From the NCBI GenBank assembly GCA_035532835.1, contig DATKQG010000095.1, positions 1 through 63,985 on the forward strand: a stretch of DNA of 63,985 nt, written 5' to 3'. A program made the translations under genes and the position numbers. This DNA comes from Candidatus Dormiibacterota bacterium. Lineage in GTDB: Bacteria > Vulcanimicrobiota > Vulcanimicrobiia > Vulcanimicrobiales > Vulcanimicrobiaceae. The notes below the pieces were generated by a model, which was not told the DNA's origin, searched no databases, and saw only the letters and a list, made by a program, of their open reading frames with translations. This document shows, in pieces, positions 1,638-44,477 of the stretch (position 1 is its first letter; each line of letters starts with the position of its first letter).

Positions 1638-1639
1638 CA

Positions 1640-7553: not shown

Positions 7554-8096
7554 ATGCGCTATAAATCGATCTGTTTCGTCCTCGCAGTGACGTTGTCTCT
7601 CGGCATAACCTCCTGCACGGCCAAGCCGCAGCACGTCGTCGTGACTCCCGTGGCCCCAGGCGGAGTCGTCGTCCCGGCCGGTACGAAGCCGGGGGCTTTG
7701 TACCGCGGCCTGTATGTCGGGCGCTCAAGCGACCTCACGTGCTGCCTAACGGCACCGCTCGCTACCCTTACCGCAACAAAGCATCTACCAGCGGGAAATC
7801 TAGTGCTCGTGTTCTATCTTCCCGATTCGGACGCGGCAAGCACCGGATGGTTCAAAGCCCACGGGATAGCCCTAACGGTCGTCTTCAATGGCCAGCCGGC
7901 GCGCCGCGCCTGCTGCTTTCACGGAGGGATGAACAGCGCTACCATCGAGCTGCCGGCGAAACTCCGCGGCGTCGTAGGCCCGATAACCTTTCAGTTGCGA
8001 ACCCAACCGGCTTTCGTCCCACACAATATCGATCCCGCAGGCATGAAAGACACACGATCCCTGGGCGTCATCCTTCAGCGCCTATTTTTCTATTAA
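7554..8096 (+). CDS. lipoprotein with double-CC domain
   Basis: This 180-residue protein begins with a lipoprotein signal peptide (lipobox LGITSC, lipidated Cys21). The mature domain (about residues 48-180) holds two adjacent-cysteine pairs, Cys63-Cys64 and Cys120-Cys121 (RRACCFHG), and ends with a DTRSLGVIL strand. The same pattern appears in the N-terminal periplasmic part of the O-antigen ligase-like protein at 32989-34788, where the pairs are 51 residues apart instead of 57. I know no named family for it. It sits divergently from the GMC operon and converges with the membrane protein at 8093-10033, overlapping by 4 bp. Confidence 0.75.
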   Translation: MRYKSICFVLAVTLSLGITSCTAKPQHVVVTPVAPGGVVVPAGTKPGALYRGLYVGRSSDLTCCLTAPLATLTATKHLPAGNLVLVFYLPDSDAASTGWFKAHGIALTVVFNGQPARRACCFHGGMNSATIELPAKLRGVVGPITFQLRTQPAFVPHNIDPAGMKDTRSLGVILQRLFFY

Positions 8097-10277: not shown

Positions 10278-11111
10278 TCACCGGAGCACTGAATCGTATT
10301 TACACGGAGCGGGCGGCACAGGATGTTGAATCGCTGCAAGAAAATCGGCGGCGATGATCGCGTGCCCTTTGTCATTTGGATGAAGGTCGACAGGAGTCAA
10401 GTAGTTTTTGACGTCGTATAATCTGGAATCACAGTTAAGATCGACGACCGTGGCACCCTGAGCTTCAACTGCAGCGTTCATCCCATTTATGAGACGCGTG
10501 CGGCCCTGACGATAAACGCTGTATGGCGCACAATTTAGGTTTTCCAACCCGCCCTTGTCGGCCGAATTAATATTCGTCGCGATAACGATACGCGCATCAG
10601 GTGCCCGCGCTCGAACGGCGGCGACCAGCGCAGTCATATCTGAAGCAAACGTTCTGCGCACTTCGGAGAAAAGCGCTGGCATGCTTGTAATATCCGATAA
10701 ATTGGGCCGCAAATTCAACTGTCGACATCCAGATATCGTTCGTGCCAATGTATATTGTGACGATATTTGAATCTACAGGAACGCGCGACACCTCGTCTGC
10801 GAGTATGCCGTCCATTTTCGGATATGGGGCGCCGCTGGCAGAGTGCCCAGGAAAAAAGGAGTTGGGCTCCGGGATGAGGTTTCGCCGGAGATGCCGAGAT
10901 TGGTCCAGTTGGCACCAAGGTCCGCGGCGAAGATAGCTGCATACGACGTCTTCTTGGCATCCGACGCGCCGACGCCGAACGTGATTGAATCACCTAGCGT
11001 CGCCAGGACAGGTCGCCACGTAGTGCCCGGCCCAGGCGTTGAGGATGCGCCCGCTGGGGCAGGGGCAATGAGATTTTGGATGATCAGGAATACGGCGGCA
11101 GCAAGCACCAT
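10278..11111 (-). pseudogene. SGNH hydrolase gene with two apparent frameshifts
   Basis: All landmarks of a secreted SGNH esterase are present but lie in three frames. The first part (from ATG 11111) has a signal-like hydrophobic N-terminus, block I ATLGDSITFG and NLGISGE. The middle (about 10700-10860) carries VTIYIGTNDIW. The last (down to 10278) has ARIVIATN and DLHPNDKGHAIIAADF with the catalytic Asp/His. The first shift is near 10860-10885 and the second near 10700-10730. Either the gene is decaying or the sequence has two single-base errors. No other gene here looks frameshifted, which favours true decay. A Pro/Ala-rich stretch follows in another frame to about 10130. Confidence 0.7.
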
Positions 11112-11338
11112 AATATCGTTGGCATGTCCCGCTGCCGATCCTCTCAACGGCTTTCCGGCGCTAGCACCGTAATCTTTCCGGGTTTATGAAGGCGGACAGC
11201 GCTACTAAAGATGCTACCCCGCATGCTATACACATATCGAGGTTTGGGCCATTCGGCTCCGTGGTTCGGGGGCATCGGAGGGACCAACATTCCTCGTGAG
11301 CGGGGGAAAGTGGGGGCTCGCCCGCATAAGGGTGCTGC

Positions 11339-11941
11339 GTGAAAGCCACCGCTCTTCTCGAAAACCCTACCGTATACAACCTAACGCAATGGCTCCTGGG
11401 CGCTGAGAAGCCGCGCCGCTACTGCATCACGCATCACGCAAATGTTGTCACGGGGGAAAGAGTTCTGGACATCGGCTGTGGGCCAGGTCTCGCTGTAAGA
11501 TACCTTCCAAAAGTCGAGTACTTCGGCTTCGAACCTAACGCGGGATACGTGGCATCTGCGCGGCGGCGATTCGGAAACCGCGCACAATTCACATGTGGTT
11601 ATTTTGACAGTTTCGCAGCACAAACGCTCGCCCCGTACGATCTTGTGCTCCTTCTCGGCGTTGTTCACCATTGCGACGATGCCACGGCCGATAACCTCTT
11701 TGCCGATATTTGCAAAGGCCTTTCTCCCACTGGCCGTGTTATAACGCTCGATCCGTGCTTTACTCCGAAACAGTCGCGCCTTGCACGATACGTCGCCACG
11801 AAGGACCGGGGCGAGCATGTGCGATCGCCGCAGGGCTATCGGGACATTGGCGGAGCCCGCCTGCGCATTCTTGGGTCGGAAACACGTGATGGTCTACTAC
11901 TGATCCCCACGACTATACACATTGGCGTGTTCGGAAAGTAG
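11339..11941 (+). CDS. class I SAM-dependent methyltransferase
   Basis: This 200-residue protein is a Rossmann-type methyltransferase. Motif I is VLDIGCGPGLAV (about residues 43-54), followed by an acidic ribose-binding position in YFGFEPN, and motif IV/post-I DLVLLLGVVHH. Such enzymes methylate small molecules or sugars using S-adenosylmethionine. GTG 11339 is the first in-frame start; no strong ribosome site is visible. It stands alone between divergent and convergent genes in the polysaccharide region, so a sugar-modifying role is plausible but unproven. Confidence 0.8.
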   Translation: MKATALLENPTVYNLTQWLLGAEKPRRYCITHHANVVTGERVLDIGCGPGLAVRYLPKVEYFGFEPNAGYVASARRRFGNRAQFTCGYFDSFAAQTLAPYDLVLLLGVVHHCDDATADNLFADICKGLSPTGRVITLDPCFTPKQSRLARYVATKDRGEHVRSPQGYRDIGGARLRILGSETRDGLLLIPTTIHIGVFGK

Positions 11942-11949
11942 TCGCCTCG

Positions 11950-13530
11950 TCAGCGCTTCTTGCGCTTCACAATCGCTATCCCTAGGCCCGGAATGACGTG
12001 TGGGTGATTTAAATCATACCCATCCTTGCGCATTCGCTTGAGGATAACGTTGTTGACGCGACTCAGCTCAGCGGCACCAAGAAAACTCACCGCCCCGCCG
12101 TACGTGTAGCCATTGCCATTCGGCCAAACGGCAAGCACGGCGTAATCCGCAGTGTCGATATTCATTGGGAAGAAGTACACGCTCCGCTCGTGATACAAGA
12201 ATGGCATTCCCGCCTCCGGCGTTGTAACCGACGCTCCCTCCGGAACGGCGGCCGCAACCTCTTGCCCCAGGCGATATAGCGCAACTCCACGTGGACTCAC
12301 AAACGTTTGAACTTGCTCGATGACTGTTGGAACAAAGGTTTGCGCGAGCTGCGTAAGCGCGATCTCCGGAACACCCGCGAAGGGCACGATGGAGCCTATA
12401 AGCAGTAATGCAGCAACCGCCCCACAGTAGAATAGCCATTTTACCCTACGCTCGCAAGCCAGGTGGTAAGCTCGCACGAAACCCAGTAGGGCGGCCCACA
12501 CGAGGATTGGAAAGTAAAAGGAGTGGTAGTGCGTACTCCATCCGGTCTTCTCCGCGCCACCAATGTTCCCAAATACATTTGGCAGCATAACCACCAAGGC
12601 AACGAGCGCGGCGCGCCATTCAAAGAAAGCAATCGCAAACAGCGCTGCATTTACCAAGAGCAGCACGAGGATCCCATTGACAAAATGTGGTTGCTGCAGC
12701 TCCTTCAATAACGCGTGAAGGCTAGTAGGTAAAAACGTACTGTAAGCGCTGTTTACTACCACAACCTTGAGCATCAGTTCGCCGAAGACAACGAGCGCTA
12801 CCGATGTAACAAGCTTAAAGGTTCGATCGGGGACCGTCCGCCAATACAGTAATGTATACAGCAGCAGCGCCCCCCCAGCGGTGAGGGCTCCACGCTCGTT
12901 GATCGAAGCGCAGAGAAGCCCGACGGCAATAAACGCCCACCGCGGCGCACGTTCCCGCGACGCCAAAGCCATAAAAACAAACCCGGACAGGACGAAAATC
13001 CGATCCGGATAGAATTGCCCGAACAGAATGCTCTCGCCCCATGCGGGATGAGTCATCACCATCAGCCCAAATATGGCCGCGCCCCAGGCCGGAATCGACC
13101 GCCTTAATAACATCACAACAGCTAGGTATACGAGCCCGACAAATGAAAGCGCGAAGACGATCGGAAGCAGCCACTCTACAGGTATTATTTTTGCGAATAG
13201 CCCGATTGGGAATAAAACGAAATAGGAGTGCAGCCTAAGAATATTCTCATTGCCGCCTGGGGGCGTTAACAGGGGACTCGCGGCGATCGCTGACGCCGTC
13301 ATCTTGGGAAGATGACTTTGGACGAAGAACAACACATGCGTAAATAGACTGCTCGTCGGCGTCCCGTGCGCGGCGATGTTTCGCGCCGTTTGGAAATAGA
13401 TCGCCGAGTCCCCACGCAAAGCGTCGATATGAATGATCTTTAACGCAATCAGAGCCGCACAGAGTGGAAGCAAAATGCTAGCTGGGACAAAGTAGATCCA
13501 GAGCGCCGGCCTTTTTTTAATTAGTCGCAC
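11950..13530 (-). CDS. multi-spanning membrane protein (DUF2079/GT-C-like)
   Basis: This 526-residue protein has about ten to eleven hydrophobic segments. Its first periplasmic loop (IDALRGDSAIYFQTARN) and the central HYHSFYFPILVW recall DUF2079-type membrane proteins, which are suspected polyprenyl-sugar glycosyltransferases. A soluble C-terminal part of about 120 residues ends in Lys/Arg. It lies 65 bp after the epimerase-GT2 fusion gene on the same strand and is probably co-transcribed with it. Function is inferred from topology and neighbours. Confidence 0.6.
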   Translation of the reverse strand: MRLIKKRPALWIYFVPASILLPLCAALIALKIIHIDALRGDSAIYFQTARNIAAHGTPTSSLFTHVLFFVQSHLPKMTASAIAASPLLTPPGGNENILRLHSYFVLFPIGLFAKIIPVEWLLPIVFALSFVGLVYLAVVMLLRRSIPAWGAAIFGLMVMTHPAWGESILFGQFYPDRIFVLSGFVFMALASRERAPRWAFIAVGLLCASINERGALTAGGALLLYTLLYWRTVPDRTFKLVTSVALVVFGELMLKVVVVNSAYSTFLPTSLHALLKELQQPHFVNGILVLLLVNAALFAIAFFEWRAALVALVVMLPNVFGNIGGAEKTGWSTHYHSFYFPILVWAALLGFVRAYHLACERRVKWLFYCGAVAALLLIGSIVPFAGVPEIALTQLAQTFVPTVIEQVQTFVSPRGVALYRLGQEVAAAVPEGASVTTPEAGMPFLYHERSVYFFPMNIDTADYAVLAVWPNGNGYTYGGAVSFLGAAELSRVNNVILKRMRKDGYDLNHPHVIPGLGIAIVKRKKR

Positions 13531-13595
13531 GAGGCGAACCTACGCTGCTGCAGCCGCACAAGCCCTCTTGACATGTTCGTCGTTGGCCAGCATCG

Positions 13596-15560
13596 TCAGC
13601 GAACGCGACCGTCGGGCAAAAGGTCGGTGACTTCGCCATCGCGTATCAGTCCAGATCGAATTAGTCGAGGACGCCCTTTGACTTCCGTCATGATTTTTGC
13701 GACGTACTCACCCACCACACCCACGGCAAAGAGATTGAACGACCCGAAGAGGAGAATTGCGATCAAGACGGTCGTGATTCCCTTAGGGGCAATACCGGGC
13801 ACGAAGATGCGCAATAGTGCCTCGATGACGGCGATCAGCATCGATATGCCGAGTGCGGCCACACCAAGGGTCGTGAGCATCGCGAGCGGCGTGTTGCTAA
13901 AGGAAAAAATGCCCCGCTTCGCCCATTCGATATTCCTCAATATATTGTTCGTTGATCGCCCAAAAGCGCGCTCCGGGCGGACGTAGTCGATGCCGGTTTG
14001 TTTGAAGCCCACGTATGCTCGCAATCCTCGCACGAACAGATCGCGTTCCGTGCAGGCAAGGAGCCAGCCAACGACGCGACGATCCATCAGCGAGAAGTCG
14101 CCGGCATCAAGCGGAATCGGAACATAACTAAATGCGGAAAATACACGGTAGAAGGCTTTATAAAGCAGCTCCCACGCGAAAGGCATATCGCGCTTTACGC
14201 GGCGCCCGAAGACGACATCCGATCCCTGCTCCCAGCGTTCGTAAAAGGCCTCGATGAGTTCGGGTGGGTCCTGGAGATCGCCGTCTAACAGCACCACGGC
14301 ATCCTTAGTGGATAGCTCCATACCGCTGCGAAACGCCATTTGCGAGCCAAAGTTCCGGGAGTGAGAGATGCCCACCACGCGCGGATCGCGAGCCGTGATT
14401 TCGCGGATCGCCGCAGCGTCCCCGTCCGGGCTTGAATCGTCAACGAAGATGATTTCGTAGTCGATTCCAAGCTTACGAAATGTTGTGGTGAGCCGCTCGT
14501 GCATTAATGGAATTGCACGCTCGTCCTTGTAACATGCGACTATGGCGCTGACGCTGCGTTTGCGTTTCTGGGCTGACTTATCCGTAACGACCTTAAACTG
14601 CCGATCGTCGAGCCCTGCGACCCAAGAGGCGGTCTTTTTCAATCCGTCTTCAAGCGAAATGGACGCCGTCCAATCGAGCATGCGCTGCGCTTTCCCGGCA
14701 TCGGCATACCAATGTGCGAGATCCCAAGCGCGATTCGGCATCGAGCCGAATTCAGGCTCTCCGGGGAGGCCAAACACATCCTTCGCAAGCAGAGCCAATT
14801 CACCGACGGTCACGCATCTGCCGGTTCCAATATTAAGGCTCTCGCCGTAGAATGCGGGGTTCATTTTCGCAGCTGCAACGATGAAGGCTCTACACACATC
14901 GTCAACGTGTATAAAATCGCGTGAGACACGCGCGTCAACCAACGTCGGGTATTGCCCCTTCAGCGCAGATCGAAGCAGTTGAGGGATCAGACGCGAAGTG
15001 TCTTCGAGGGGCCCGTATACCGAATAGAGTCGCAAATTTAGGCATGGGAAGGCTTTTTGCTTTCCCAGGAAATGCAAGTGGTTTGCCGCCGCTAACTTAG
15101 AAACCGCGTAGTAGCTGTTCGGTTCGAACGGTCCTGACTCCGGCGGTGCGGTGCAGTTAGTACCGTATTCGGACGACGTACCGGCGTGCACATAGGCCGC
15201 GAATGGCACACGAGCCAGCATTTCGGTAATATTGACGAGCGCGGAAAAATTGGTGCGATAGATTTTATCGACGTCTTGTTCGAAAGAGTAAGCTCCGTAG
15301 GCTACGCAGTCGAACACCGTTTGTACGCCGGTGCTTTCGACGAGATTCTTGGTTGCCGCTTTGTCGGTCAGGTCAACGGTGAATACATGCTCGTCATTCA
15401 CGTCCGCAAGTCGCCAGCTTTTGGCGCGCTGTTCTACCGCGAAAACGTCTTTGCGGTGAGCGGCTATGGTTTTGAAAAGATTCGCACCGATGAATCCCGA
15501 CCCGCCGGTGACCAGAATCGGGCCGCGTAAGGCCCGAATATAGCGCTCGAGATCGATCAT
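13596..15560 (-). CDS. epimerase-GT2 glycosyltransferase fusion
   Basis: This 654-residue protein joins two enzymes. Residues about 14-320 form an extended SDR sugar epimerase/dehydratase with ILVTGGSGFIGANL and YAVSKLAAA (YxxxK). Residues about 335-570 form a GT2 domain with VSAIVACYKDE, IIFVDDSSPDG and VVLLDGDLQDPP, in the style of polyprenyl-phosphate sugar synthases. Two membrane segments follow (about 570-630). The GT-B side may load a sugar made by the epimerase half onto a lipid phosphate at the inner membrane. It overlaps the transketolase C-subunit gene by 4 bp. The fusion is intact, with no stop or shift at the junction. Confidence 0.85.
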   Translation of the reverse strand: MIDLERYIRALRGPILVTGGSGFIGANLFKTIAAHRKDVFAVEQRAKSWRLADVNDEHVFTVDLTDKAATKNLVESTGVQTVFDCVAYGAYSFEQDVDKIYRTNFSALVNITEMLARVPFAAYVHAGTSSEYGTNCTAPPESGPFEPNSYYAVSKLAAANHLHFLGKQKAFPCLNLRLYSVYGPLEDTSRLIPQLLRSALKGQYPTLVDARVSRDFIHVDDVCRAFIVAAAKMNPAFYGESLNIGTGRCVTVGELALLAKDVFGLPGEPEFGSMPNRAWDLAHWYADAGKAQRMLDWTASISLEDGLKKTASWVAGLDDRQFKVVTDKSAQKRKRSVSAIVACYKDERAIPLMHERLTTTFRKLGIDYEIIFVDDSSPDGDAAAIREITARDPRVVGISHSRNFGSQMAFRSGMELSTKDAVVLLDGDLQDPPELIEAFYERWEQGSDVVFGRRVKRDMPFAWELLYKAFYRVFSAFSYVPIPLDAGDFSLMDRRVVGWLLACTERDLFVRGLRAYVGFKQTGIDYVRPERAFGRSTNNILRNIEWAKRGIFSFSNTPLAMLTTLGVAALGISMLIAVIEALLRIFVPGIAPKGITTVLIAILLFGSFNLFAVGVVGEYVAKIMTEVKGRPRLIRSGLIRDGEVTDLLPDGRVR

Positions 15561-16462
15561 AGGGCGATCGCCTCAAGGACCGACTCCGGGTCGAGTCCCG
15601 AAGCCTTCCGTAGATATTGCTGCGACCCGTAACGCTCGTAGCGATGCGAACGCGCATGCAAGCTCGTGAAGCGCTTAGGGAAGAGCCCGCGTTCCATTAA
15701 ATCGGTCGCAAGCTGGCTCGCTAACCCGCCCTGGCGAACATGTTCTTCAATCACGCAGAGCCCAGGCCCATTCGCAATCGCGTCAAGCAAGGCCGGCGGC
15801 AAAGCATGGCGTTCCAGCGGAAGCTCCGTTAGTGCCCAGAGGTTCGGCCGTCGAGCCTGCGGCAGAGCCATGATCGGTTCGAGGTAGGTACCCACGAGCG
15901 GGCCCAGCACAACGACAGCCATCCCATCTCCGGCAACAAGTTGCCGCCACGGCGCATAATCAGGCACAGCGAAACTCGCGGGCGCCTCACCTCGGCCTAA
16001 ACGGAGGTACGCGGGGGAACGGACCTGCGCGGCCATGGCGACGACCGTCGCCACATCTTCGTCGAAGGCGGGCACGAACACGGCAATGTTCTGCAAGGTG
16101 AGGAGGACGCCATAGTCCTCGATCGCATGGTGGGTCGGGCCCATAACACCATAAGCATATCCGCCCCCATTTCCAACGAGCTTAACCGGAAGATCGTGAA
16201 ATGCTAGGTCGTTGCGGATTTGTTCGAAGGGGCGCGCATAACAAAAGGGCGCGATGCTGTAGGCCCACACGTCGAAATCTTGGGCAGCAAGCGCAGCGGC
16301 TACCGAAACCATGTTTTGTTCCGAGACTCCCGCGTTTATGAAGCGCTCACCCAAAGCCGATTTCAACGGTTCGAGCGCCATAAAGCCTAGGTCTCCCGTA
16401 AAGAAGACCATCCGCGGATCCGCCGCCCGCGCCACGAGAGCGTCACAGAAGGCCTTTCTCAC
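15557..16462 (-). CDS. transketolase, C-terminal subunit
   Basis: This 301-residue protein corresponds to the pyrimidine-binding and C-terminal domains of transketolase. The segment RFINAGVSEQNMVSVAAALA contains the Glu that activates the thiamine ring, and the GPTHHAIED loop is characteristic. With the partner encoded just upstream it would form a split transketolase that transfers two-carbon ketol units between sugars, requiring thiamine diphosphate. The genes overlap by 4 bp on both sides (transketolase N and the epimerase-GT fusion), so the three are one translational unit. Confidence 0.9.
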   Translation of the reverse strand: MRKAFCDALVARAADPRMVFFTGDLGFMALEPLKSALGERFINAGVSEQNMVSVAAALAAQDFDVWAYSIAPFCYARPFEQIRNDLAFHDLPVKLVGNGGGYAYGVMGPTHHAIEDYGVLLTLQNIAVFVPAFDEDVATVVAMAAQVRSPAYLRLGRGEAPASFAVPDYAPWRQLVAGDGMAVVVLGPLVGTYLEPIMALPQARRPNLWALTELPLERHALPPALLDAIANGPGLCVIEEHVRQGGLASQLATDLMERGLFPKRFTSLHARSHRYERYGSQQYLRKASGLDPESVLEAIAL

Positions 16463-17241
16463 ATGCGTCCAATCTCGCCTAGAGCCATATCATAGAGCTC
16501 GCGGGTTAACGGTAGGTAATGCCACTCCATTCGGCCTTCCATAAAGCTCACGCCGTGGCCCTTCGTTGTCGCGAGAATTATGCAGTGTGGGCGATCGGAC
16601 CGTTTGGCTATTGCGCTGCGCAGGGCCGCATGATCGTGTCCGTCCACAATATCGATATCAACGTCGAAACCGCGCAGTTTTTCCCATAACGGAGACATCG
16701 AAGCGACTTCAGCGGTGGTACCAAAACCTTGCAGTTGATTGTGATCTATTAAAATCGTCAGGTTCCCGAGGCGGTGATGGCTCGCAAAAATCAGGCCTTC
16801 CCATGTTGATCCCTCTTGCCATTCTCCGTCCGAGGTCAGGCAGAACGAACGAGCATCGATGCCCTTTAGGCGAAAGCCGAGCGCCGATCCGGCCGCGAGG
16901 GAAAGGCCGTGCCCAAGGCTGCCCGTAGCAAAGCGAATCTCCGGAATGGTGGCCGCCGGAGGGTGGCCGGGAAAGCGTGTGTTCTCGCCGTGGAATGTAT
17001 GGAGGTCTTCCTCGCTCACGCGGCCGATGCTCCACAGGGCGATGTAGAGTGCCCCTGCGGCATGACCTTTTGAAAGCACGAACATGTCGGGCCCGCGAAC
17101 ACATTCATGCATGAGAACGAGGAGTGCGTCTAGCGCGGAGAGGTTTCCGCCGATGTGGCCGACGCCGCTCTCGAAGTGCATTTTCAGTAAACGCGCCCGC
17201 GCCCGGTCTATATCAGCGCGGCTCAACCGGTCAACAGACAT
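16459..17241 (-). CDS. transketolase, N-terminal subunit
   Basis: This 260-residue protein is the thiamine-diphosphate-binding half of a split transketolase. It has GVGHIGGNLSA near residue 27, SKGHAAGALY, FATGSLGHGLS, and a cofactor/metal motif SDGEWQEGSTWE ending near the conserved N of LIDHNQLQ. The usual GDGE is SDGE here. Split transketolases inside sugar clusters often serve a dedicated sugar pathway rather than the pentose-phosphate pathway (inference). It is the first gene of the operon 17241-11950. Confidence 0.9.
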   Translation of the reverse strand: MSVDRLSRADIDRARARLLKMHFESGVGHIGGNLSALDALLVLMHECVRGPDMFVLSKGHAAGALYIALWSIGRVSEEDLHTFHGENTRFPGHPPAATIPEIRFATGSLGHGLSLAAGSALGFRLKGIDARSFCLTSDGEWQEGSTWEGLIFASHHRLGNLTILIDHNQLQGFGTTAEVASMSPLWEKLRGFDVDIDIVDGHDHAALRSAIAKRSDRPHCIILATTKGHGVSFMEGRMEWHYLPLTRELYDMALGEIGRM

Positions 17242-17460: not shown

Positions 17461-18507
17461 GTGGACACTATTTCCCGGACACTATCACCGTCTGAACAAG
17501 GGCTGCCGAGGAGCTCCGATGGCGAGGCCATTACGGTTTGCTGCGTCATTCCGGCTTATCGCGCCGCAGCATCAATTAAAAACGTGGTGCAGACTGCCCT
17601 TACTTATGCGCAAGCCGTAGTTGTGGTAGATGACGCATGCCCGCAAGGAAGCGGTGCAATTATAACCAGTGCCTACCGCAACGATCCTCGCGTGATCGTC
17701 ATCGCACATAGTGCCAACGGAGGCGTTGGCGCGGCTATGAAAACCGGTATTGCCGCAGCCTTAGAGTGCCATGCCGAGATCATCGTGAAGATCGATGCGG
17801 ACGGACAGATGGATCCGTCGTTTATTCCGGCGATTCAAGACGCGTTCGACCGGGATCCAGTCCTTGCGTACGTGAAAGGGAATCGTTTTTTTGATGCAAG
17901 CGTCGTTCGCCTCATGCCGAAAGTTCGTCTTTGGGGGAACGCGGTTCTGTCCCTGATGACGAAAGCGGCCTCGGGCTATTGGAATCTGCTCGACCCCACT
18001 AACGGCTATGTCGCCTTTCGATCCGATGCGCTACGCATGCTAGATTGGCGATCGTTTGCCGACAGCTATTTTTTTGAAATCTCGATACTTTGCGAGTTTG
18101 GCCTCAAGCGTTTCCCGATACTCGAACTCGAGATGCCGACGATTTACAATCTTGCACCCAGCTCGCTCTCCGTAAGACGCGTGATTTTTGAATTCCCTCA
18201 AAGACTAGCAAAACTCACCCTAAAAAGGTTTTTCGTTCAGTATCTCATTTTCGATGTGAACATTGGGACACTGTATTTTGTTATGGGTCTCTCCCTGACG
18301 CTCTTCGGATTCGTGTTCGGATTGGTCCAATGGATAAATGGATTTATAACGCACCTTCCAAAGCCCATCGGCACCGTGATGCTCGCGGTGCTCCCGTTTA
18401 TGATGGGTTTCCAATTGCTCCTAAGTTCGCTAATGTACGATGTTCAGATTTCGCCAAAAACACGGCATGAACTTTTAATGGTGCGACATAATCGCAAAGC
18501 TAAATAG
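17461..18507 (+). CDS. GT2 glycosyltransferase with C-terminal membrane segments
   Basis: This 348-residue protein is a GT2 enzyme: VCCVIPAYRAA at residues 23-33, VVVVDDACPQG (nucleotide-binding Asp pair), KIDADGQMDP (DxD-type metal site), and DPTNGYVAFR. Two hydrophobic segments follow at about 265-290 and 305-330. The layout matches polyprenyl-phosphate glycosyl synthases, which work at the cytoplasmic face. GTG 17461 is the only usable start because the frame has a stop (TAA) shortly before it. It lies 66 bp upstream of the acyl-AMP ligase operon and may be co-transcribed with it. Confidence 0.85.
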   Translation: MDTISRTLSPSEQGLPRSSDGEAITVCCVIPAYRAAASIKNVVQTALTYAQAVVVVDDACPQGSGAIITSAYRNDPRVIVIAHSANGGVGAAMKTGIAAALECHAEIIVKIDADGQMDPSFIPAIQDAFDRDPVLAYVKGNRFFDASVVRLMPKVRLWGNAVLSLMTKAASGYWNLLDPTNGYVAFRSDALRMLDWRSFADSYFFEISILCEFGLKRFPILELEMPTIYNLAPSSLSVRRVIFEFPQRLAKLTLKRFFVQYLIFDVNIGTLYFVMGLSLTLFGFVFGLVQWINGFITHLPKPIGTVMLAVLPFMMGFQLLLSSLMYDVQISPKTRHELLMVRHNRKAK

Positions 18508-18573: not shown

Positions 18574-20256
18574 ATGAGCATCAACTTGTCTCAGCAAGTC
18601 AAATACCTGGCGCATCGAACGCCTGAAGCGGCATTCTGCACGTTTACGCTGGGGCCACACACCACTCGTATCACGTTCGCTGAGCTTTACGAACGTAGCT
18701 GCGCGTACGCGCGTTATTATCAGATGCGGGGCATTGGTCGTGGCGATGTCGTCTTGATTATTCTTCGTCATTCTCCGCATTTGTTTTACAGCTACCTTGG
18801 TGCGATATTGGCCGGCGCCGTCCCGTCATTTATGCCGTTCCCCTCGCCCAAGCAACGCCCGGCATTGTATTGGTCCGATCATGAAGCCCTATTCAGGCGC
18901 ATCGAACCGCGCCTCATCGTCACGTATGAAGAAAACGCGGCTACTGCCGAACGGCTCATCTCCACCCTTCCAATCGGCATATGCGTAGCTGACGATTCGA
19001 TCCTTGCTTCGCCGAATGATCCCCACGCTGATTTCATCGGCTTGCACGCGCAGCCGGGCGATATAGCATGCCTGCAGCACAGTTCCGGAACAACAGGCCT
19101 AAAAAAAGGCGTGATGCTCACGCATCGGATGTTGTTCGATCACCACAAGATGCATACGGAGGTGATCGGATTCGGGGATGGCGATTCTATAGCGTCGTGG
19201 CTACCGCTCTATCACGATATGGGTTTTATTGCCTGTTTCATGGGCTCGCTTTTGCAGGGCACGCATCTGGTCGCGCTCGATCCATTTGAATGGGTGATGC
19301 GCCCGCGCATGCTGCTCGATGCGATCGAGCAGTATCGCACGACGTTTTCTTGGCTCCCCAATTTTGCGTTTTCGCACCTCGTGAACGGCGCCCGCGGAGA
19401 GAGGGAATGGGATCTGTCGTCGATGCGCGCTTTTATTAATTGCTCCGAACCTTGCAAGCCGGCAACATTCGACCGATTCTTGGAGCGTTTTCACGCCAGC
19501 GGTGTCAGCCGAGAGAAGCTCCACGTTTGTTATGCGATGGCAGAGAACGTTTTTGCCGTAACGCAAACGCAGCTGGGGAAGAGCCCCACGGTGTTGCGCG
19601 CCGACGCTGCGGCGCTGTCGCTGGGGGTGTTCAGCGATGCACAAGACGAAAAACAGGAACAGCGACTCCTCTCCTGCGGAAGTGCGGCCAACAGTGTCGC
19701 GGTCTTAGTCCGGGATCATATCACGGGTGAAGAGGTTGCCGAGAACCAGATCGGCGAAATCCATGTTACTAGCAAGTTTCTTTTCGGTGGCTACTATCGG
19801 CTCCCGGAAAAGACGCGTGAACGCTTGGCTGACGGCTGGTATGCGACCGGCGATGTAGGCTTTTTGCATGATGGTGAATTATACGTTACGGGCCGTGTCG
19901 ATGACATGCTGATTGTGAATGGCCGGAACTACTACGCCCATGAAATCGAAGCGCTCCTGACAGATATTGAAGGCATCGTCCCGGGACGATGCGTCGCCAT
20001 CGCGGTTGAGGACGAACGGAGCGATGCGACGGTCGTGGTCGTGCTTGCCGAGTGCTCGGGAGATGGCGCGTCGGCGGCTACGACATCACGCGCAAAGCGG
20101 CATATCTTAGAGCGTGCGGGCTTGGCAATTCATGCCTTCGTTCCTGTGGCCGCAGGGGCGCTAGTAAAGACGACGAGTGGAAAAATCAGCCGTACCAAGA
20201 ATAAGGAGCTGTACCTGCGCGGCGAATTTGAGGCAAGAGAGCAACAAAACTCATGA
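18574..20256 (+). CDS. fatty acyl-AMP ligase-like adenylate-forming enzyme
   Basis: This 560-residue protein is an adenylate-forming enzyme. The ATP motif QHSSGTTGLKKG is at about residues 166-177, followed by WLPLYHDMGFIA, ATGDVGFLHDGELYVTGR, and the catalytic-Lys region KTTSGKISR near residue 538. Length and the YHDMG and RNYYAHEIE segments match fatty acyl-AMP ligases, which activate a fatty acid and pass it to an acyl carrier protein. It overlaps the ACP gene by 4 bp (ATGA), the expected partner. This is the first gene of the ligase-ACP-WcbI-WcbI operon. The chain length cannot be read from sequence. Confidence 0.85.
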   Translation: MSINLSQQVKYLAHRTPEAAFCTFTLGPHTTRITFAELYERSCAYARYYQMRGIGRGDVVLIILRHSPHLFYSYLGAILAGAVPSFMPFPSPKQRPALYWSDHEALFRRIEPRLIVTYEENAATAERLISTLPIGICVADDSILASPNDPHADFIGLHAQPGDIACLQHSSGTTGLKKGVMLTHRMLFDHHKMHTEVIGFGDGDSIASWLPLYHDMGFIACFMGSLLQGTHLVALDPFEWVMRPRMLLDAIEQYRTTFSWLPNFAFSHLVNGARGEREWDLSSMRAFINCSEPCKPATFDRFLERFHASGVSREKLHVCYAMAENVFAVTQTQLGKSPTVLRADAAALSLGVFSDAQDEKQEQRLLSCGSAANSVAVLVRDHITGEEVAENQIGEIHVTSKFLFGGYYRLPEKTRERLADGWYATGDVGFLHDGELYVTGRVDDMLIVNGRNYYAHEIEALLTDIEGIVPGRCVAIAVEDERSDATVVVVLAECSGDGASAATTSRAKRHILERAGLAIHAFVPVAAGALVKTTSGKISRTKNKELYLRGEFEAREQQNS

Positions 20257-20519
20257 GCGATACGAATGTCTTCCAAAAAGTGCGTGCCACCGTCGCGGCT
20301 ACCTTTCATGTGTCGCCTGAGGAAATCATCACGAGCGAGACCACTAGTACTGATGTGGACGGTTGGGATTCGCTCTCCCATTCCATCCTCCTCATGAACG
20401 TGGAAGAGGCATTCGGAATCGAGTTGCCCTTCGAGGCGGCCTACGAATTGGCGAACGTTGGGGAGCTTGGCGATTTAGTGATCGCGACGCTAGCCGAGAA
20501 AAAGCAGGCGGCCCCGTGA
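20253..20519 (+). CDS. acyl carrier protein
   Basis: This 88-residue acyl carrier protein has the canonical phosphopantetheine site GWDSLSH with Ser40, and helix III sequence EEAFGIELPFE. It would carry the acyl chain supplied by the adjacent acyl-AMP ligase. It overlaps the ligase stop by 4 bp, and its own TGA overlaps the GTG of the following WcbI-family gene, so all are translated as one coupled set. It is more canonical than the ACP at 535-771. Confidence 0.9.
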   Translation: MSDTNVFQKVRATVAATFHVSPEEIITSETTSTDVDGWDSLSHSILLMNVEEAFGIELPFEAAYELANVGELGDLVIATLAEKKQAAP

Positions 20520-21349
20520 GATCGATTGTCGTGTTCGGCGACGCACTCGCCGGCGCAATTGCCATCGTGCTCGATCGCATAGCGGGCATCAGCGGAAAAT
20601 ATGGTGTCGTCCATCTTGGCGCCGAGAATGTTGCCGCATCCACGCGGGCTCTCGCTGAATGCGCGTTGTTTTTGCACCAAGAGCCCTACGAAGCTGGCCA
20701 GCTTCTTACCGCAATTCCGGCTGGTTGTGAGCGGATCGCATTCCCCTCGCTTGAGCTGCGCTACCTATGGCCATTCACGTGCGTCAATCCCTTCAACCGA
20801 CCCGAGCCGCCTCGCTACCCAAACGGGCGTTTCCCCTACGGAGACAGTTTTATAATTAGTTGCCTACAACAGCATGTTAACCCAGATAAGATTGTCGAAT
20901 ATTATCTATCCGTCGAATGGGATGTTTCATGGCCTGACCTGCAGTCGCTCCACCAAACTGAATTAGAGCGCCTCGACTGGCTCGAGGCGCGCACGGATGT
21001 CAAAATGGTTCCCTATATTCAAGAGTATGCTTCACAAAGACGCCTATTTTGGGGCGCCGCGGGTCCAACAAACGCATTATTATGCGAGCTCATCATAAGG
21101 CTGTTAGATCGTATGTTTGCCTCGAAAGTGTTGATTACCCGTAGAGTTTTAACGGAACTACTCTATAGCTTTGGAGACCGCGATCTCTTTGGCCAAATAG
21201 CAGTTCCAATACACCCCCGTGTCGCGGAGTATTTTTCCCTTCAATGGTACAACCCGACGGCTGGTCACCAGCACTTCGACGAAATCCTCGGCTATCGTGA
21301 ATATTTTGAGCGCATGATAGAAGCATCTCTAGCGGCTACGCGGCTATGA
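20516..21349 (+). CDS. WcbI-family protein lacking the Cys-Gln and His motifs
   Basis: This 277-residue protein is clearly WcbI-like ([29 protein letters not shown]) and parallels the next gene along its length. However, the N-terminal G-N-C-Q position reads GDAL (residues 8-11), and the HPT motif reads GPT, so the presumed active-site Cys, Gln and His are all gone. It may be a catalytically dead partner or regulatory subunit of the neighbouring WcbI protein. GTG 20516 overlaps the ACP stop (GTGA) and is preferred over upstream in-frame starts lying inside the ACP gene. Its stop overlaps the next ATG. Confidence 0.75.
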   Translation: MRSIVVFGDALAGAIAIVLDRIAGISGKYGVVHLGAENVAASTRALAECALFLHQEPYEAGQLLTAIPAGCERIAFPSLELRYLWPFTCVNPFNRPEPPRYPNGRFPYGDSFIISCLQQHVNPDKIVEYYLSVEWDVSWPDLQSLHQTELERLDWLEARTDVKMVPYIQEYASQRRLFWGAAGPTNALLCELIIRLLDRMFASKVLITRRVLTELLYSFGDRDLFGQIAVPIHPRVAEYFSLQWYNPTAGHQHFDEILGYREYFERMIEASLAATRL

Positions 21350-22233
21350 GTAACCAGGAGACGATCCTCGTCTATGGCAACTGTCAGGCGGAAGTGGTTT
21401 CGTCAGTTTTTAGACTCGACGTAGGTATCACGGCACACTTCGACATCCGCTATATCCCAAGCTATCGAGATAGACGTTTTGACGAGCTTGTTCTAACGGA
21501 TGAAGACATTGCTAACTGCGCCTTTCTATGTGAACAACACGACTCAAACCAGTTTCCGCAACGCGACGCGCTACCAGAAACCTGCACAATCATCAAGTTT
21601 CCGTCGATTGATTGCAATCTTTTGTGGCCAATGACTGCAGTAAATCCATATAATCCAAGCGAGCCATCCTTCCCGTTCGGGCGCTTCCCGTACGGCGACC
21701 GCGTTATCTTATCGCAGATCGATGCGGGCAAATCGCCAGAGGAGATACTAGAATATTATCTGAACGCATGGGACGATTATAAGCCTGACCTAGATCGTCT
21801 CCTAAAACTTGAGTTGGCCAGATTTGCCGCCCGCGACGCGAAGTGCGATATCGGCATGGGACAAGTTTTTTTCGATTATTTTGCTGCGGAGCGCCCTCTA
21901 TGGACGGTTAATCATCCGACACGGCGTCTTCTTCAAGAGCTCGTGGAGCGAATCGCGGCAGCAGCACTCTTGGTAGATAAGCGCTTCGCAGAAGCAGATA
22001 TTGCGACAACCATGGAATCCCATTTCGCACTTTCGCCGCGGGGTCCACTGGGAGTCATCAGCGTGCCTATACATCCCGGCGTCGCTCGGCATTTCCAGCT
22101 TTCGTGGTATGACGAGAACGAGCATCACTTTCTCTGGGATGGGACCTCATTAGTATACCAAGACTACTTCAAAGAGCTTATCGACTGGTCGATTTTAGTA
22201 AAAGGCCAGCAAGCCAGCGTGGTAACCAACTAG
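21346..22233 (+). CDS. WcbI-family polysaccharide acyltransferase-like protein
   Basis: This 295-residue WcbI-family protein keeps the full motif set: VYGNCQAEV (Cys13, Gln14), [20 protein letters not shown] and [11 protein letters not shown]. The one characterised family member binds coenzyme A and sits in a capsule cluster, which suggests acyl transfer to sugar. Here the gene ends an operon with an acyl-AMP ligase and an ACP, so the donor may be acyl-ACP (inference). It has no signal peptide. Its 3' end overlaps the convergent GT2-GT4 gene by 4 bp. Confidence 0.8.
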
Positions 22234-24556: not shown

Positions 24557-26671
24557 GTGCACATCGAAACCACCGACCGATGGAAGGACTATCCCCAGCA
24601 AACCGAGTTTGCGCAGGGTACGCTCGATCCGAATTCGAGCCTAGCGATTCTGGTCGGTGCGGTGGGCGAGCGCAAGCGTGTTCTCGATGTAGGGTGCGCA
24701 ACCGGTTACCTAGCCAAGGTTTTGCAGAGTCGTCAGTGCGATACGGTCGGCATCGATATTAATCCGAAAGCCGCGGAAGAAGCCCGTAAGTACTGCTCGA
24801 GGGTCGTGGTTACAGATCTCGATAATGCCTCGATCGCCGAAGCTGTCGGTGACGATACGTTTGACATTATCGTCTTTGCCGACGTACTCGAGCACCTGCG
24901 CAACCCCCTACGCGTGCTCGACGAAGCACGTTCCCTGTTACGCGAGGGCGGCTTCGCACTCATTTCGTTGCCGAACATAGCGCATGGCGCGGTCCGGCTC
25001 GCCCTGCTACAGGGGAACTTCGATTACCAGGAGTTGGGCCTGCTCGACGATTCGCACCTACGTTTCTTTACCCGCAGGTCCGCCGAGGAGCTCTTTCTCG
25101 AAGCCGGCTACCACCTTGAAGAAGTCGGGCGGACGGTGCTGCCGCTCTTTAGCGAGAGCGACTTGGTGCCCGACGTTCGCGAAAGCGATTTTTCGGCCGA
25201 GGCAGTCGAGGCCGTTCGGCGCGACCCCGATTGCGATACGTTGCAGTTCATCCTGCGCGCATATCCGCTCAACAACGAAGCGCGATTTCGCAACCTTGCA
25301 AAACGCTTCTTGGCGACAAATACCGAGCTAGCGAATACGCGCACGCGTTCCGAACGCGAACGGGAACTACTCGCGCAGGCCTCGGCCCGGCTCGAGCAAC
25401 ACGAAGCTGAACTTGCGCAAACCCGTCAGTTCCTGGCGTCCGCAAATGCCGAAATGTTACGGGCGCAAGCGGACTACCAAGCCCTCGCCGCAGACGCTCG
25501 CGAGATCGAAGGGCTGCGCCTGCGCGTTCAGGATGCCGAGGCGCTCCAGGCTTCCGCGGCAAGCGCTACGGAACGTGCCCATGGTTTCGAAATCGACCTC
25601 GTCCGCGCACAAGAGCGGTTGGCAATCCAAACCGCACGCGCGGCCGAACTTGAGGCGCGCGTCATCGATCTAACGCATTCCCTCGGCGTTTTCCAGCAAG
25701 AGCAGCACCGGCTCGAAGCCGAGAGCGAAGCGAAGGACGACCGCGCGCGCGATCTGCTGGAAGCCATCGCTAGACTCGAAGACGCGGCACAGCACCCGGC
25801 CGAAAACGCAGTAGCGCAGCAGCGCATTCCAGAGCTGCTGGCAACCGTTGAGAGCCTCCGGGTTGAGATCGCAGAGAGCGAGAAGCTCTTTAAGCTGCAA
25901 GATGCCGAAGTCGCGGCGGCCCGCATGCAAACGAAAGACGCGGAGCAAGAACTCGCAACGCTGCAGCAAAAGGTCGCTGTTCTGGAACAGGATCTCACGC
26001 GTTCGGGCGCGATGTTATCGGCTGCGTACGCCGAGCGGGGCGTCCTACACGCGAAGCTCGGCGAGGCCGAGCGCGAGCTCTTCGATCGCGATGCACGCGT
26101 ACAAGGACTAGAACGCGATGCCGAATCGCTCCGCGCCGCCCAGGCCGAATCGCGCAAGACGATAGAAGATCTCTACGCGCAGTGGGAGGGCCTCGAGGCA
26201 GCCGCCGCCGAGTATCGAGCGCAAATCGAGACGCTGCAACGCGACGTCGAGCACGCTCGAGGCGCCTCGTCGGATCGCGAGCGCCGTATTACCTCGCTCG
26301 ATGCGAACATCCAGCGGCTCGAACTGCGTGCAACGGCCGACAAGGAGTCTATCGAACAACTCCACGCTGCGATAGGCCAATTCGAATCCGTCACTCGCGA
26401 ACTTGAGTTTACCAAATCCGCGTTAACGGCCGAGCGTGCGCGGTTGCAGTCCGACGTACAAGCGGCCGAATCCAGGTGCAATATCCTTGAGTCGCGCGCG
26501 ATCGAGCTCGAATCCGTGCTGCTGGAAAACACCGAATCGCTGGCCTCGCGCCTGCGAGCCGAATCGGCCCAACTCGCGACCCTTATCGATTTGATTCAAT
26601 CCGGATCGTTCTGGTCGCTCAAGCGCTTCTTCGGGAGAGTGGGCCGCATTTTCGGGCGACGCGTCTCCTAG
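24557..26671 (+). CDS. methyltransferase with long C-terminal coiled coil
   Basis: This 704-residue protein has a class I SAM methyltransferase domain at about residues 30-190 (VLDVGCATGYLAK, VGIDINP, IIVFADVLEHL). Then comes a near-continuous Glu/Ala/Leu/Arg coiled coil from about 240 to 665, and a basic aromatic tail (SFWSLKRFFGRVGRIFG) that could bind membrane or a partner. GTG 24557 follows CTGGAGG by 5 nt. The architecture recalls WbdD, whose coiled coil measures O-antigen length and whose methyltransferase caps the chain. The kinase domain of WbdD is absent. It converges on the ABC exporter genes (4-bp overlap). Confidence 0.8.
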   Translation: MHIETTDRWKDYPQQTEFAQGTLDPNSSLAILVGAVGERKRVLDVGCATGYLAKVLQSRQCDTVGIDINPKAAEEARKYCSRVVVTDLDNASIAEAVGDDTFDIIVFADVLEHLRNPLRVLDEARSLLREGGFALISLPNIAHGAVRLALLQGNFDYQELGLLDDSHLRFFTRRSAEELFLEAGYHLEEVGRTVLPLFSESDLVPDVRESDFSAEAVEAVRRDPDCDTLQFILRAYPLNNEARFRNLAKRFLATNTELANTRTRSERERELLAQASARLEQHEAELAQTRQFLASANAEMLRAQADYQALAADAREIEGLRLRVQDAEALQASAASATERAHGFEIDLVRAQERLAIQTARAAELEARVIDLTHSLGVFQQEQHRLEAESEAKDDRARDLLEAIARLEDAAQHPAENAVAQQRIPELLATVESLRVEIAESEKLFKLQDAEVAAARMQTKDAEQELATLQQKVAVLEQDLTRSGAMLSAAYAERGVLHAKLGEAERELFDRDARVQGLERDAESLRAAQAESRKTIEDLYAQWEGLEAAAAEYRAQIETLQRDVEHARGASSDRERRITSLDANIQRLELRATADKESIEQLHAAIGQFESVTRELEFTKSALTAERARLQSDVQAAESRCNILESRAIELESVLLENTESLASRLRAESAQLATLIDLIQSGSFWSLKRFFGRVGRIFGRRVS

Positions 26672-27423
26672 GCGAATCCTACCCCTGCATCGCTCTGCGC
26701 GTAGGCTTGCACTACTTCTTGCGGCGTTCCGAACATCTTGACGCGCCCGCGATCGAGCCACAACACCACGTCGCACCACCGCTCGATGATCCCGGTGTTG
26801 TGCGAAACCAGCACGATCGTCTTGCCGCGATCTTTGAAATCTTCGATGGACATCAGGCACTTCTGTGCGAAGAGTTCGTCGCCGACGGCCAGCACTTCAT
26901 CAAGCAGCAGGATATCCGGATCCACGCAGACGGCAACCGCGAACGCCAAGCGCATGAGCATGCCGGACGAATACGTCCGCACCGGCGCGTCCATGAAACT
27001 TCCCAATTCTGAGAACTCGACGATCGCATCCATTTTCGCTTCGGCTTGTTTGGGCGTAAACCCCAACACCAATAACTCTACGCGTGCGTTTTCCCGGCCG
27101 GTGAGATCGGGGTGAAAGCCGGCTCCCAGCGCAAGCAGCGGAGCGAGAGCGCCATCGATCGATATCGTCCCGGCGTCGGGTGGAAAAACTCCGGCCAGGA
27201 GCCGCATCAAGGTTGTTTTGCCGGAGCCGTTGCGCCCGATGATGCCGAGCATTTGCCCGTGCTCGATCTCGAAATCGATGTCGGCGAGCGCCTCGACGAT
27301 GCGCAGCCGATGGTCCTCGGCCGTGAAGAGCCGCTTCACCAAGGCATCTTTTAACGTCGCGCGCCCCAACGAGCGATAGCGAAACGATTTGGCGACGCCG
27401 GCTACGCTAATCGCGTTCTTCAT
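26668..27423 (-). CDS. polysaccharide ABC transporter, ATP-binding protein (Wzt/TagH type)
   Basis: This 251-residue ATPase has Walker A GRNGSGKTTLM (about residues 60-70), signature YSSGMLMRLAFA, Walker B DILLLDEVLAVGD and the switch SHN. It powers export of a complete polysaccharide across the inner membrane with the permease encoded just upstream (4-bp overlap). It lacks the C-terminal carbohydrate-binding domain of Wzt proteins that recognise capped O-antigens, so substrate selection must lie elsewhere. Confidence 0.92.
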   Translation of the reverse strand: MKNAISVAGVAKSFRYRSLGRATLKDALVKRLFTAEDHRLRIVEALADIDFEIEHGQMLGIIGRNGSGKTTLMRLLAGVFPPDAGTISIDGALAPLLALGAGFHPDLTGRENARVELLVLGFTPKQAEAKMDAIVEFSELGSFMDAPVRTYSSGMLMRLAFAVAVCVDPDILLLDEVLAVGDELFAQKCLMSIEDFKDRGKTIVLVSHNTGIIERWCDVVLWLDRGRVKMFGTPQEVVQAYAQSDAGVGFA

Positions 27424-28265
27424 AGATACTCGCCGAACGAATCTTTGTAGTGATTGTACGCCATTTGCGCGATCCCGAAGAGCACCAATGCCGTAAGCGC
27501 CAGGTATATCAGATCGCTCATTTTCGGAAACGTGTTATAGAAAAGGATCCGTTGATAACTCACGATGAGCGAGACTAACGGATTCGCCAGCGCGATCGGG
27601 CGAATCGCCTCGGGAATCGAGCTTGTCCTATAAAAAATCGGCGTCAGGTAGAAGCTCAGCATCACAAAATACGTTACCAGTTGCTGCACGTCGCGATAGA
27701 ACACGTTAAACGTGGCGAACAAGGTTAGCGTCGCGAATGTTATCACGCTTTGCAGCACGATGAGGACCGGCAAGGCGATCAGCGCGATTCCTAGATGTCC
27801 GTGCAGAATGATCGCCAAAACGACGAACACGGGCAACGAGAGCAGAAAGTTTATGAGATTCGAGAGCACCGGGACGATCAGCAGCGCCTCGGTCGGGAAG
27901 ACGGTCTTGCCCACGTACATTCGGCCGTCGACGATCGCGCTGGTGCCGAGCTGGAGCGCATTCGCGAACCAATTCCAGGCGAGCAACCCGCTCAAGAGAT
28001 AGAGCGGAAAATTCGGGATGCCCACCTTGAGGTAGACTCCGAACACCAGCGTGTACACCGCCATAAAGAGCAGCGGATTCAGGAGCGTCCAGGCAAAACC
28101 GAGCGCCGAGCCTCGATAGCGAAGCTTCAGATCGCGCACAACCAGCTCGTAAATGAGCCAGCGAAAATGATGGAGCCTTCTCGCGAGGGCTACCGGAGGA
28201 TGCGTTACGAGTTCTTGCGCCAAACCGAAGCTGAGGGTTCTTTTCGCAAGCGCCGAAGCCTCCAC
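27420..28265 (-). CDS. polysaccharide ABC-2 type permease (Wzm type)
   Basis: This 281-residue protein is an ABC-2 permease with about six hydrophobic segments. The N-terminal amphipathic helix LIYELVVRDLKLRYRGSALG and the following FAWTLLNPLLFM are typical for O-antigen/teichoic acid exporters. It pairs with the ATPase encoded after it. The start shown is GTG 28265, only 7 bp from the divergent GT gene start at 28273. That leaves no room for promoters between them, so either the true start is further in or promoters lie inside the coding regions. Confidence 0.92.
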   Translation of the reverse strand: MEASALAKRTLSFGLAQELVTHPPVALARRLHHFRWLIYELVVRDLKLRYRGSALGFAWTLLNPLLFMAVYTLVFGVYLKVGIPNFPLYLLSGLLAWNWFANALQLGTSAIVDGRMYVGKTVFPTEALLIVPVLSNLINFLLSLPVFVVLAIILHGHLGIALIALPVLIVLQSVITFATLTLFATFNVFYRDVQQLVTYFVMLSFYLTPIFYRTSSIPEAIRPIALANPLVSLIVSYQRILFYNTFPKMSDLIYLALTALVLFGIAQMAYNHYKDSFGEYL

Positions 28266-30237: not shown

Positions 30238-31357
30238 TCCGGGCGCGAACGGCCTCTTCTTCGGCGCGCAACGCCGCTTCCAAAAGTGGCCAACTGTGGG
30301 CAAACGCATCCGATTTTCCGTTGACGCCGCGGAAGAAATCACGAAATGCGCGAGCGACGCAGCCGATCCGACGAAACTGTAATCGCACCAGCTTTGGAAG
30401 CAGGGATCGAAAGAGCCAATATACGACCGCGAGCGGTACGGTTCGGGGGTAGTATTGCTGCATGAGGTACAGCATGTTGCGAACTGAGTAGTAGTCGTGC
30501 AACTCGCTTTTGAAGCCGACCGACCGGCCCTCTTTATGCCAAACCACCGCCTCCGGGCAGAAGACCAGCTTCCAACCGAGCCGGCGCAACTTGATGCACC
30601 AGTCCGTTTCCTCACGATATAGAAAGTACGATTCCTCAAGCAGGCCCGCGGAGCGAATCGCCTCCGTTCGCACAAACATGCTCGCACCAACTACGTGCTC
30701 GAGGGGCTTAGATAGAGCCGGCGATGCAACCACTTTCGTGCCGCGGCCGAACTGCGTGTCCACGCCGACCATCGGAATAATCGAACCGCCGCCGTATGCT
30801 TGAACGATATCCGGTTGCGCGTGGCGCAAGAGCGTCGCGCCGACGATAGCGATACGCCGGTCGCGCGAGGCGCAATCGACCATCCGGGTCAGCGCATGAG
30901 GGTCAACAATGGTGTCGTTATTCAGAATCCATACGTATCGCGCATCGGTGTGCGCCAGGGCGTAACGAATGCCGACATTATTGCCGCCCGCATATCCTAG
31001 GTTTGCGCCGGTTTGCACGAATATCAGCGGCGCATCGGTGCAGTCGGCCGGGGCATGCGCGTCGCACTCCGGATCGTAAACTACGGAACGCAGCGGCTTA
31101 AGGGCGGGGCGATAAGCCCACGTTCCGCCCGGGCCGTCTGCCGTCGTGTTCACGGTAAGCCGCCCGCTCGCCCATTCTTGCAAGCGCTCGAACGAACCGT
31201 CGACCGAGCTGTTATCGCACACGATAATGCGATAATTCGCATAATCGCTCCTCAGCAAACTCTCGAGGCATTCGACCGTATCGAGCCAGCCGTTCCAGTT
31301 CAGCACGACGATCGCTACCTGCGGCTCGGCCGCAGCGCCGAAGCGGAGCGCGTTCAC
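30152..31357 (-). CDS. GT2 glycosyltransferase (rhamnosyltransferase-like)
   Basis: This 401-residue GT2 enzyme has VAIVVLNWNGW near residue 12, VCDNSSVDGS, ANLGYAGGNN, WILNNDTIVD (metal site) and LYREETDWC (catalytic Glu/Asp). The pattern is that of WbbL/RfbF-type rhamnosyltransferases. GTG 31357 overlaps the TGA of the upstream sulfotransferase gene (GTGA), which fixes the start over the longer open frame to 31438. The basic C-terminal 40 residues run into the end of the convergent GT4 gene. Confidence 0.85.
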   Translation of the reverse strand: MNALRFGAAAEPQVAIVVLNWNGWLDTVECLESLLRSDYANYRIIVCDNSSVDGSFERLQEWASGRLTVNTTADGPGGTWAYRPALKPLRSVVYDPECDAHAPADCTDAPLIFVQTGANLGYAGGNNVGIRYALAHTDARYVWILNNDTIVDPHALTRMVDCASRDRRIAIVGATLLRHAQPDIVQAYGGGSIIPMVGVDTQFGRGTKVVASPALSKPLEHVVGASMFVRTEAIRSAGLLEESYFLYREETDWCIKLRRLGWKLVFCPEAVVWHKEGRSVGFKSELHDYYSVRNMLYLMQQYYPRTVPLAVVYWLFRSLLPKLVRLQFRRIGCVARAFRDFFRGVNGKSDAFAHSWPLLEAALRAEEEAVRARTKRQKRAHWTARLARSPAKNAPRSRVLP

Positions 31358-44415: not shown

Positions 44416-44477
44416 GAGCCTCTCATTCCCCCTCGCGAGCAACCCAACCTATCGCGTCGCGAGCGGCCGGGCCTGAA

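Follow-up and report, generated by a model that had tools for sequence, protein, structure and literature searches.

The 63,985-nucleotide stretch analysed here (Candidatus Dormiibacterota bacterium, contig DATKQG010000095.1; hereafter the window) contains a surface-sugar gene cluster of a soil bacterium, and within it an operon of four genes, all on the + strand, which encode an acyl-AMP ligase, an acyl carrier protein (ACP) and two proteins of the WcbI family, here called WcbIa and WcbIb. With a probability of roughly 60%, we read this operon as a system for carrier-protein-dependent sugar acylation, in which WcbIb moves an acyl group from the ACP to a glycan or a lipid-linked sugar and WcbIa serves as its partner. 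The evidence is comparative: WcbI and ACP genes are paired in three phyla, which suggests a role for this still-unexplained family. WcbI has a solved structure, binds coenzyme A (CoA) and is needed for the capsule; its activity and its partner were not found (PMC4104973). The comparison names candidate partners, namely an ACP as donor, the enzyme loading it and a dead paralogue, which make the decade-old question of WcbI function directly testable. If the proposal is correct, chemistry on carrier proteins, familiar from lipid and natural-product pathways, would extend to the decoration of surface sugars in several phyla.

The operon and its two WcbI proteins

Open reading frame calls and Pfam searches confirmed the gene arrangement described in the original prediction, which had been made from the letters of the window alone. 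The genes of the ligase (18574-20256; Pfam AMP-binding, 3e-58), the ACP (20253-20519), WcbIa (20516-21349, GTG start at 20516; PF18588, 2e-20) and WcbIb (21346-22233; PF18588, 1e-25) overlap by 4 bp each, the shared bases being ATGA (ligase/ACP), GTGA (ACP/WcbIa) and ATGA (WcbIa/WcbIb). Overlaps of four bases are commonplace in operons. The ACP has both a PP-binding profile match (PF00550, 7e-7, above the gathering score) and the DSL serine (Ser40 in GWDSLSH). A family 2 glycosyltransferase (GT2; 17461-18507, + strand; Pfam Glycos_transf_2, 1e-17) with two C-terminal transmembrane segments, which resembles polyprenyl-phosphate sugar synthases, ends 66 bp before the ligase start and is probably a member of the same operon.

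Both WcbI proteins score well above the PF18588 gathering score of 29.2 (73.6 bits for WcbIa, 90.7 bits for WcbIb). As had been predicted, only the second has the Cys/Gln/His motif: WcbIa carries GDAL and AAGP where WcbIb has GNCQ and VNHP, and thus lacks equivalents of Cys13 and His190. In WcbIb, where Gln14 is intact as well, Cys13 and His190 (the latter in the NHP motif) align to Cys14 and His201 of the crystallized WcbI (PDB code 4bqn), a correspondence found in this copy only. In the crystal, CoA is disulfide-bonded to Cys14 with His201 nearby, and these two residues hold the thiol and the acetyl end of CoA (PMC4104973). An AlphaFold2 model of WcbIb (predicted local distance difference test, pLDDT, 90) matched 4bqn in Foldseek with an E-value of 2e-12, a TM-score of 0.72 and an identity of about 16% over the structurally aligned part; 4bqn aside, Foldseek gave no significant PDB fold match for this model. 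The loop bearing Asn172 is missing from the alignment of WcbIb to the crystallized protein. We do not claim WcbI to be an SGNH hydrolase; Foldseek produced only weak PatB matches (E 0.23).

Recurrence of the WcbI-ACP link and its loading enzymes

PF18588 was surveyed in 98 relatives, in every one of the 99 genomes available for the family of the window, and also around a match in Acetobacteraceae (337 genomes of the class, 249 of the family) and one in Clostridia (196 genomes of the class). In the about 80 neighbourhoods retrieved, ACP, ligase and FkbH genes were called with profiles built in this analysis; the contig scan used an alignment of 7 close WcbI sequences, a set of 13 diverse ones being too divergent. 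Note that the loci are best matches per genome and no random sample, and that many genomes are metagenome-assembled with short contigs, so that the absence of an ACP is partly missing data.

An ACP gene lies at most 3.6 kb from WcbI in 36 loci of Eremiobacterota, Acetobacteraceae, Azospirillaceae and Clostridia. The original prediction would have been weakened by an adjacency confined to the genome of the window; instead the adjacency recurs across three phyla, and the enzymes that load the ACP are of two kinds. Among the ACP-linked WcbI domains, 44 of 49 are encoded on the same strand as the ACP, and 22 lie within 100 bp. In a maximum-likelihood tree of 117 domains, an ACP was nearby for 46 of the 76 domains of one branch versus 3 of the 41 outside it (Fisher 1e-8, relatedness ignored); for the Eremiobacterota family, this ACP-linked branch has the ACP at 20 of 23 loci. 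The ACP label needs 16 changes on the tree compared with about 37.5 in shuffles, which indicates that it is clustered and implies several separate gains or losses. A whole-genome profile search of the host (2.89 Mb) found no more than five PP-binding matches, and two of them adjoin WcbI genes; because these matches are so few, the WcbI-ACP gene content exceeds chance. A chance adjacency was rejected in view of this genome-wide count and of the ACP-poor remainder of the WcbI tree, which acts as a within-family control.

The window itself holds a second pair, in which a divergent ACP (535-771, + strand; WDSQRE; PF00550, 28.7 bits, above cut-off) lies directly upstream of a third WcbI (771-1637, + strand; GSCQ and HGHL; PF18588, 1e-15) and shares 1 bp with it. 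The gene at 1631-2488 (+ strand), which overlaps the 3' end of this third WcbI, has a weak GDSL lipase/acylhydrolase match (0.0048); an SGNH acyltransferase acting as partner is a possible product.

WcbI occurs in 16 tandem pairs, and each upstream copy lacks the equivalents of both Cys13 and His190; the downstream copy retains the cysteine in 15 and the histidine in 14 of the 16. On the WcbI tree the Cys/His-less upstream copies form separate clades in Eremiobacterota and Acetobacteraceae, which implies that the arrangement of an active and a dead copy arose at least twice; the pair of locus L079, whose WcbIa and WcbIb are fused into one protein, was placed with weak support. Judged from these residues, WcbIa, to which the original prediction gave no role, looks like a conserved non-catalytic partner. 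Vivoli and colleagues proposed that WcbI needs a partner, and a conserved non-catalytic WcbI copy fits this proposal. Lone WcbI genes without a dead copy are common.

Among adenylating enzymes, the window ligase is closest to the fatty acyl-AMP ligases (FAALs), which provide its top PDB matches (3kxw and others) and its best NCBIfam match (PRK09192, 6e-85). We name it FAAL-like because its score of 285.8 bits lies below the curated cut-off of 600. The long stretch between its YAMAEN and SCG motifs, which may correspond to the FAAL insertion between subdomains B and C, is clearly shorter in the relatives at L029, L030 and L033. An FAAL-type ligase stands beside the ACP in most Eremiobacterota loci and in a few Acetobacteraceae loci, counts that include L103, L128 and L129 (Acetobacteraceae or other), three loci of differing gene direction and doubtful linkage. 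An FkbH-domain protein (TIGR01686, E 1e-74 to 1e-91) adjoins the ACP and WcbI in Niveispirillum, Acetobacteraceae, Clostridia and a single Eremiobacterota locus; FkbH-like proteins have been described as makers of glyceryl-ACP (PMC7489565). On the plasmid of Niveispirillum cyanobacteriorum (Azospirillaceae; NZ_CP025615) the annotations of the locus read 'HAD-IIIC family phosphatase', 'acyl carrier protein' and 'WcbI family'; the plasmid search returned just three WcbI records. That two unrelated ACP loaders accompany one and the same downstream enzyme would be difficult to account for if WcbI did not use the loaded ACP.

The co-occurrence of WcbI with acyl-AMP ligases, which the original prediction had put forward as a check, was counted over the 99 family genomes: the ligase (E<1e-40) is present in 18, WcbI in 18 and both in 15 (Fisher p=3e-12, relatedness ignored). 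The expectation that relatives of the ligase keep this company was borne out for the close ones, which adjoin ACP and WcbI; only a distant one (L159, 34% identity), which has a fused carrier domain and very large proteins on either side, belongs to a locus resembling those of polyketide and nonribosomal peptide synthases. Its genome is one of the family genomes with the ligase and without WcbI; two others of this kind retain an FAAL-ACP pair in a different setting (L156, L158). At L158 (6308-9868; genome G038) FAAL and ACP are followed by an AlgX-type SGNH acetyltransferase (PF16822, 3e-14) and then a methyltransferase, so that in this single case the acetyltransferase apparently replaces WcbI.

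Gene fusions were also recorded. FAAL and ACP are one protein at L086, next to WcbI, and at L027 (7573-9237) WcbI is the C-terminal domain of an ABC exporter-like ATPase; the proteins of the loci compared included no ACP-WcbI fusion. WcbI is joined to tetratricopeptide repeats in L039, L041, L111 and L117 (Eremiobacterota, Acetobacteraceae). At the Eremiobacterota locus L157, a protein of 1202 residues (10722-14330) with 11 predicted transmembrane segments and no Pfam match is encoded downstream of an ACP. Among the papers searched, none connected WcbI proteins with an ACP.

Proposed mechanism and competing explanations

In the mechanism that we propose, the ligase would activate a carboxylic acid with ATP and load it onto the phosphopantetheine at Ser40 of the ACP. 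From this putative donor WcbIb would take the acyl group, most likely as a Cys13 thioester aided by His190, and transfer it, in the cytoplasm, to a sugar hydroxyl (or amine). The acceptor may belong to a glycan that the Wzm/Wzt-like transporter exports afterwards, or may be a polyprenyl-phosphate sugar from the adjacent glycosyltransferase. WcbIa, a paralogue presumed to lack catalytic activity, would pair physically with WcbIb and thereby form or complete the complex. The original prediction of a carrier-fed acylation by WcbI is largely right, in view of the recurrent WcbI-ACP link and the two loaders. It went too far in naming a long-chain fatty acid, since the ligase scores below the NCBIfam FAAL cut-offs and other loci have glyceryl-ACP-type loaders; nor is its exported polysaccharide established as acceptor over a nucleotide sugar or a polyprenyl-phosphate sugar, the resemblances of the neighbouring GT2 and GT-C-like proteins being weak. 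Whether the WcbI branch as a whole constitutes a class of carrier-protein-dependent sugar acyltransferases, with its own fold, a Cys-His centre, an interchangeable loader (FAAL or FkbH) and often an active and a dead copy paired in at least two independent events, we consider an evenly balanced matter.

Several known systems share part of this design. WcbI from the capsule cluster of Burkholderia pseudomallei (PDB 4bqn/4bqo, PF18588) belongs to the same family, has the same fold, likewise places a Cys and a His in its active cleft and is also encoded in a polysaccharide cluster; in contrast, CoA is its only reported ligand and no partner was identified, whereas the window operon adds an ACP, a loader and a dead paralogue. 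In the Dlt system (DltA ligase, DltC carrier, DltB MBOAT, DltD SGNH), which D-alanylates teichoic acids, the acyl thioester of a small carrier likewise ends on an envelope polymer (PMC12148441). However, WcbI differs from DltD, which is an SGNH protein, no transmembrane segment is predicted in WcbI, and no MBOAT (DltB) or DltD profile match was found among the window proteins scanned, which were part of the window's open reading frames. The FAAL-ACP pairs of lipopeptide and mycolate synthesis (FadD32-Pks13, for example) also give an acyl-AMP ligase a carrier domain of its own (PMC4667280), but the window operon is without a condensing or peptide synthase, and WcbI comes after the ACP. The FkbH and glyceryl-ACP pairs of tetronate and methoxymalonyl pathways recur as FkbH and ACP beside WcbI in related loci; the difference is that those loci carry WcbI beside the ACP, and that in the window operon a ligase takes the place of FkbH.

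Four points weigh against the proposed acylation. Thirty of the 76 branch domains and most WcbI domains outside the branch are without a nearby ACP, some of them on short contigs. We know of no acyl group or glycan structure from the lineage of the window. Arg167, the residue stacked on the adenine of CoA, is conserved in WcbIb as R163, so that WcbIb may bind CoA. Finally, WcbI has been reported as a CoA-binding protein without detected acyltransferase activity (PMC4104973).

Two alternatives are unlikely. WcbI might simply acetylate sugars from acetyl-CoA in the usual way, with the ligase and the ACP as mere neighbours that serve a different product; the crystal structure with CoA (PMC4104973) and the frequency of ACP-free WcbI (38 of the 41 domains outside the branch) agree with this. 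It is made improbable by the recurrence of the link in three phyla with two loaders, often as direct neighbours, and by the co-occurrence of ligase and WcbI over the family genomes. Alternatively, WcbIb might act as an acyl-ACP:CoA transacylase or thioesterase, which hands the acyl group to CoA (or water) and so feeds another acyltransferase. CoA is bound in the same WcbI cleft (PMC4104973), the CoA-contact residue R163 is conserved, and the cluster encodes a hexapeptide protein (3463-4023) that is likely another glycan acyltransferase; yet some glycan loci hold WcbI and no ACP, and both the fusion to an ABC exporter-like ATPase and the replacement by an AlgX-type protein point to a glycan as the end point, which leaves this explanation unlikely too.

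A further possibility, tentative and rather less than probable, modifies the proposed acylation in its acceptor only: WcbI may acylate a polyprenyl-phosphate-linked monosaccharide, the product of the adjacent GT2, which a GT-C enzyme would then move outside the membrane, so that the polymer would not be the direct acceptor. The GT2, homologues of which occur at 7 loci, is closest to AglJ and PpgS in NCBIfam (below cut-off) and to dolichol-P-mannose synthase in the PDB (3e-4); a membrane protein of 646 residues with 11 predicted transmembrane segments (8093-10033, - strand), likely a GT-C glycosyltransferase, is a conserved neighbour of the operon at 8 loci, and a GtrA-like protein is encoded at 4026-4574. 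On the other hand, the family scores are under the curated cut-offs, the AlphaFold2 model of the GT-C-like protein has a pLDDT of 67 with none of its best Foldseek matches (STT3/PglB/ALG12/EmbB) at E<=0.001, and the GT2, GT-C-like and GtrA-like genes are missing from several ACP-WcbI loci. The presence of EmbB and of the EmbA-EmbB-AcpM2 complex among these weak matches raises the idea that the ACP is a structural subunit of the GT-C glycosyltransferase, comparable to AcpM in mycobacterial EmbA-EmbB, and no acyl donor for WcbI. We regard this as highly improbable, as loaders (FAAL or FkbH), needless for a purely structural ACP, adjoin the ACP and are once fused to it.

The surrounding glycan cluster

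The operon is surrounded by a large glycan cluster with glycosyltransferases, epimerases, a hexapeptide acetyltransferase, a Wzm/Wzt-like ABC exporter, a Wzy_C ligase-like protein and a sulfotransferase. The exporter consists of a Wzt/TagH-like ATPase (26668-27423, - strand; NCBIfam PRK13545 2e-61, Wzt 1e-60, both below the curated cut-offs) and a Wzm-like permease (27420-28265, - strand; NCBIfam galactan permease 3e-15, below the curated cut-off). At 8 loci an FAD-dependent oxidoreductase-like protein (5455-7074, - strand, in the window) is conserved in the vicinity of the operon. The sulfotransferase (31354-32994, - strand) and the Wzy_C-type ligase-like protein (32890-34788, + strand) lie within the cluster, whose polymer is possibly sulfated.

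Three minor observations concern other genes of the window. A transketolase is split over two genes inside the sugar cluster (15557-17241, - strand), as is also the case near L034. Two large DUF11 repeat proteins, likely surface proteins, are encoded close together (41128-44442 and 45575-48799, - strand). The gene at 51147-52376 (- strand) encodes an IS605 OrfB/TnpB-type transposase with a Cas12f1-like TNB domain.

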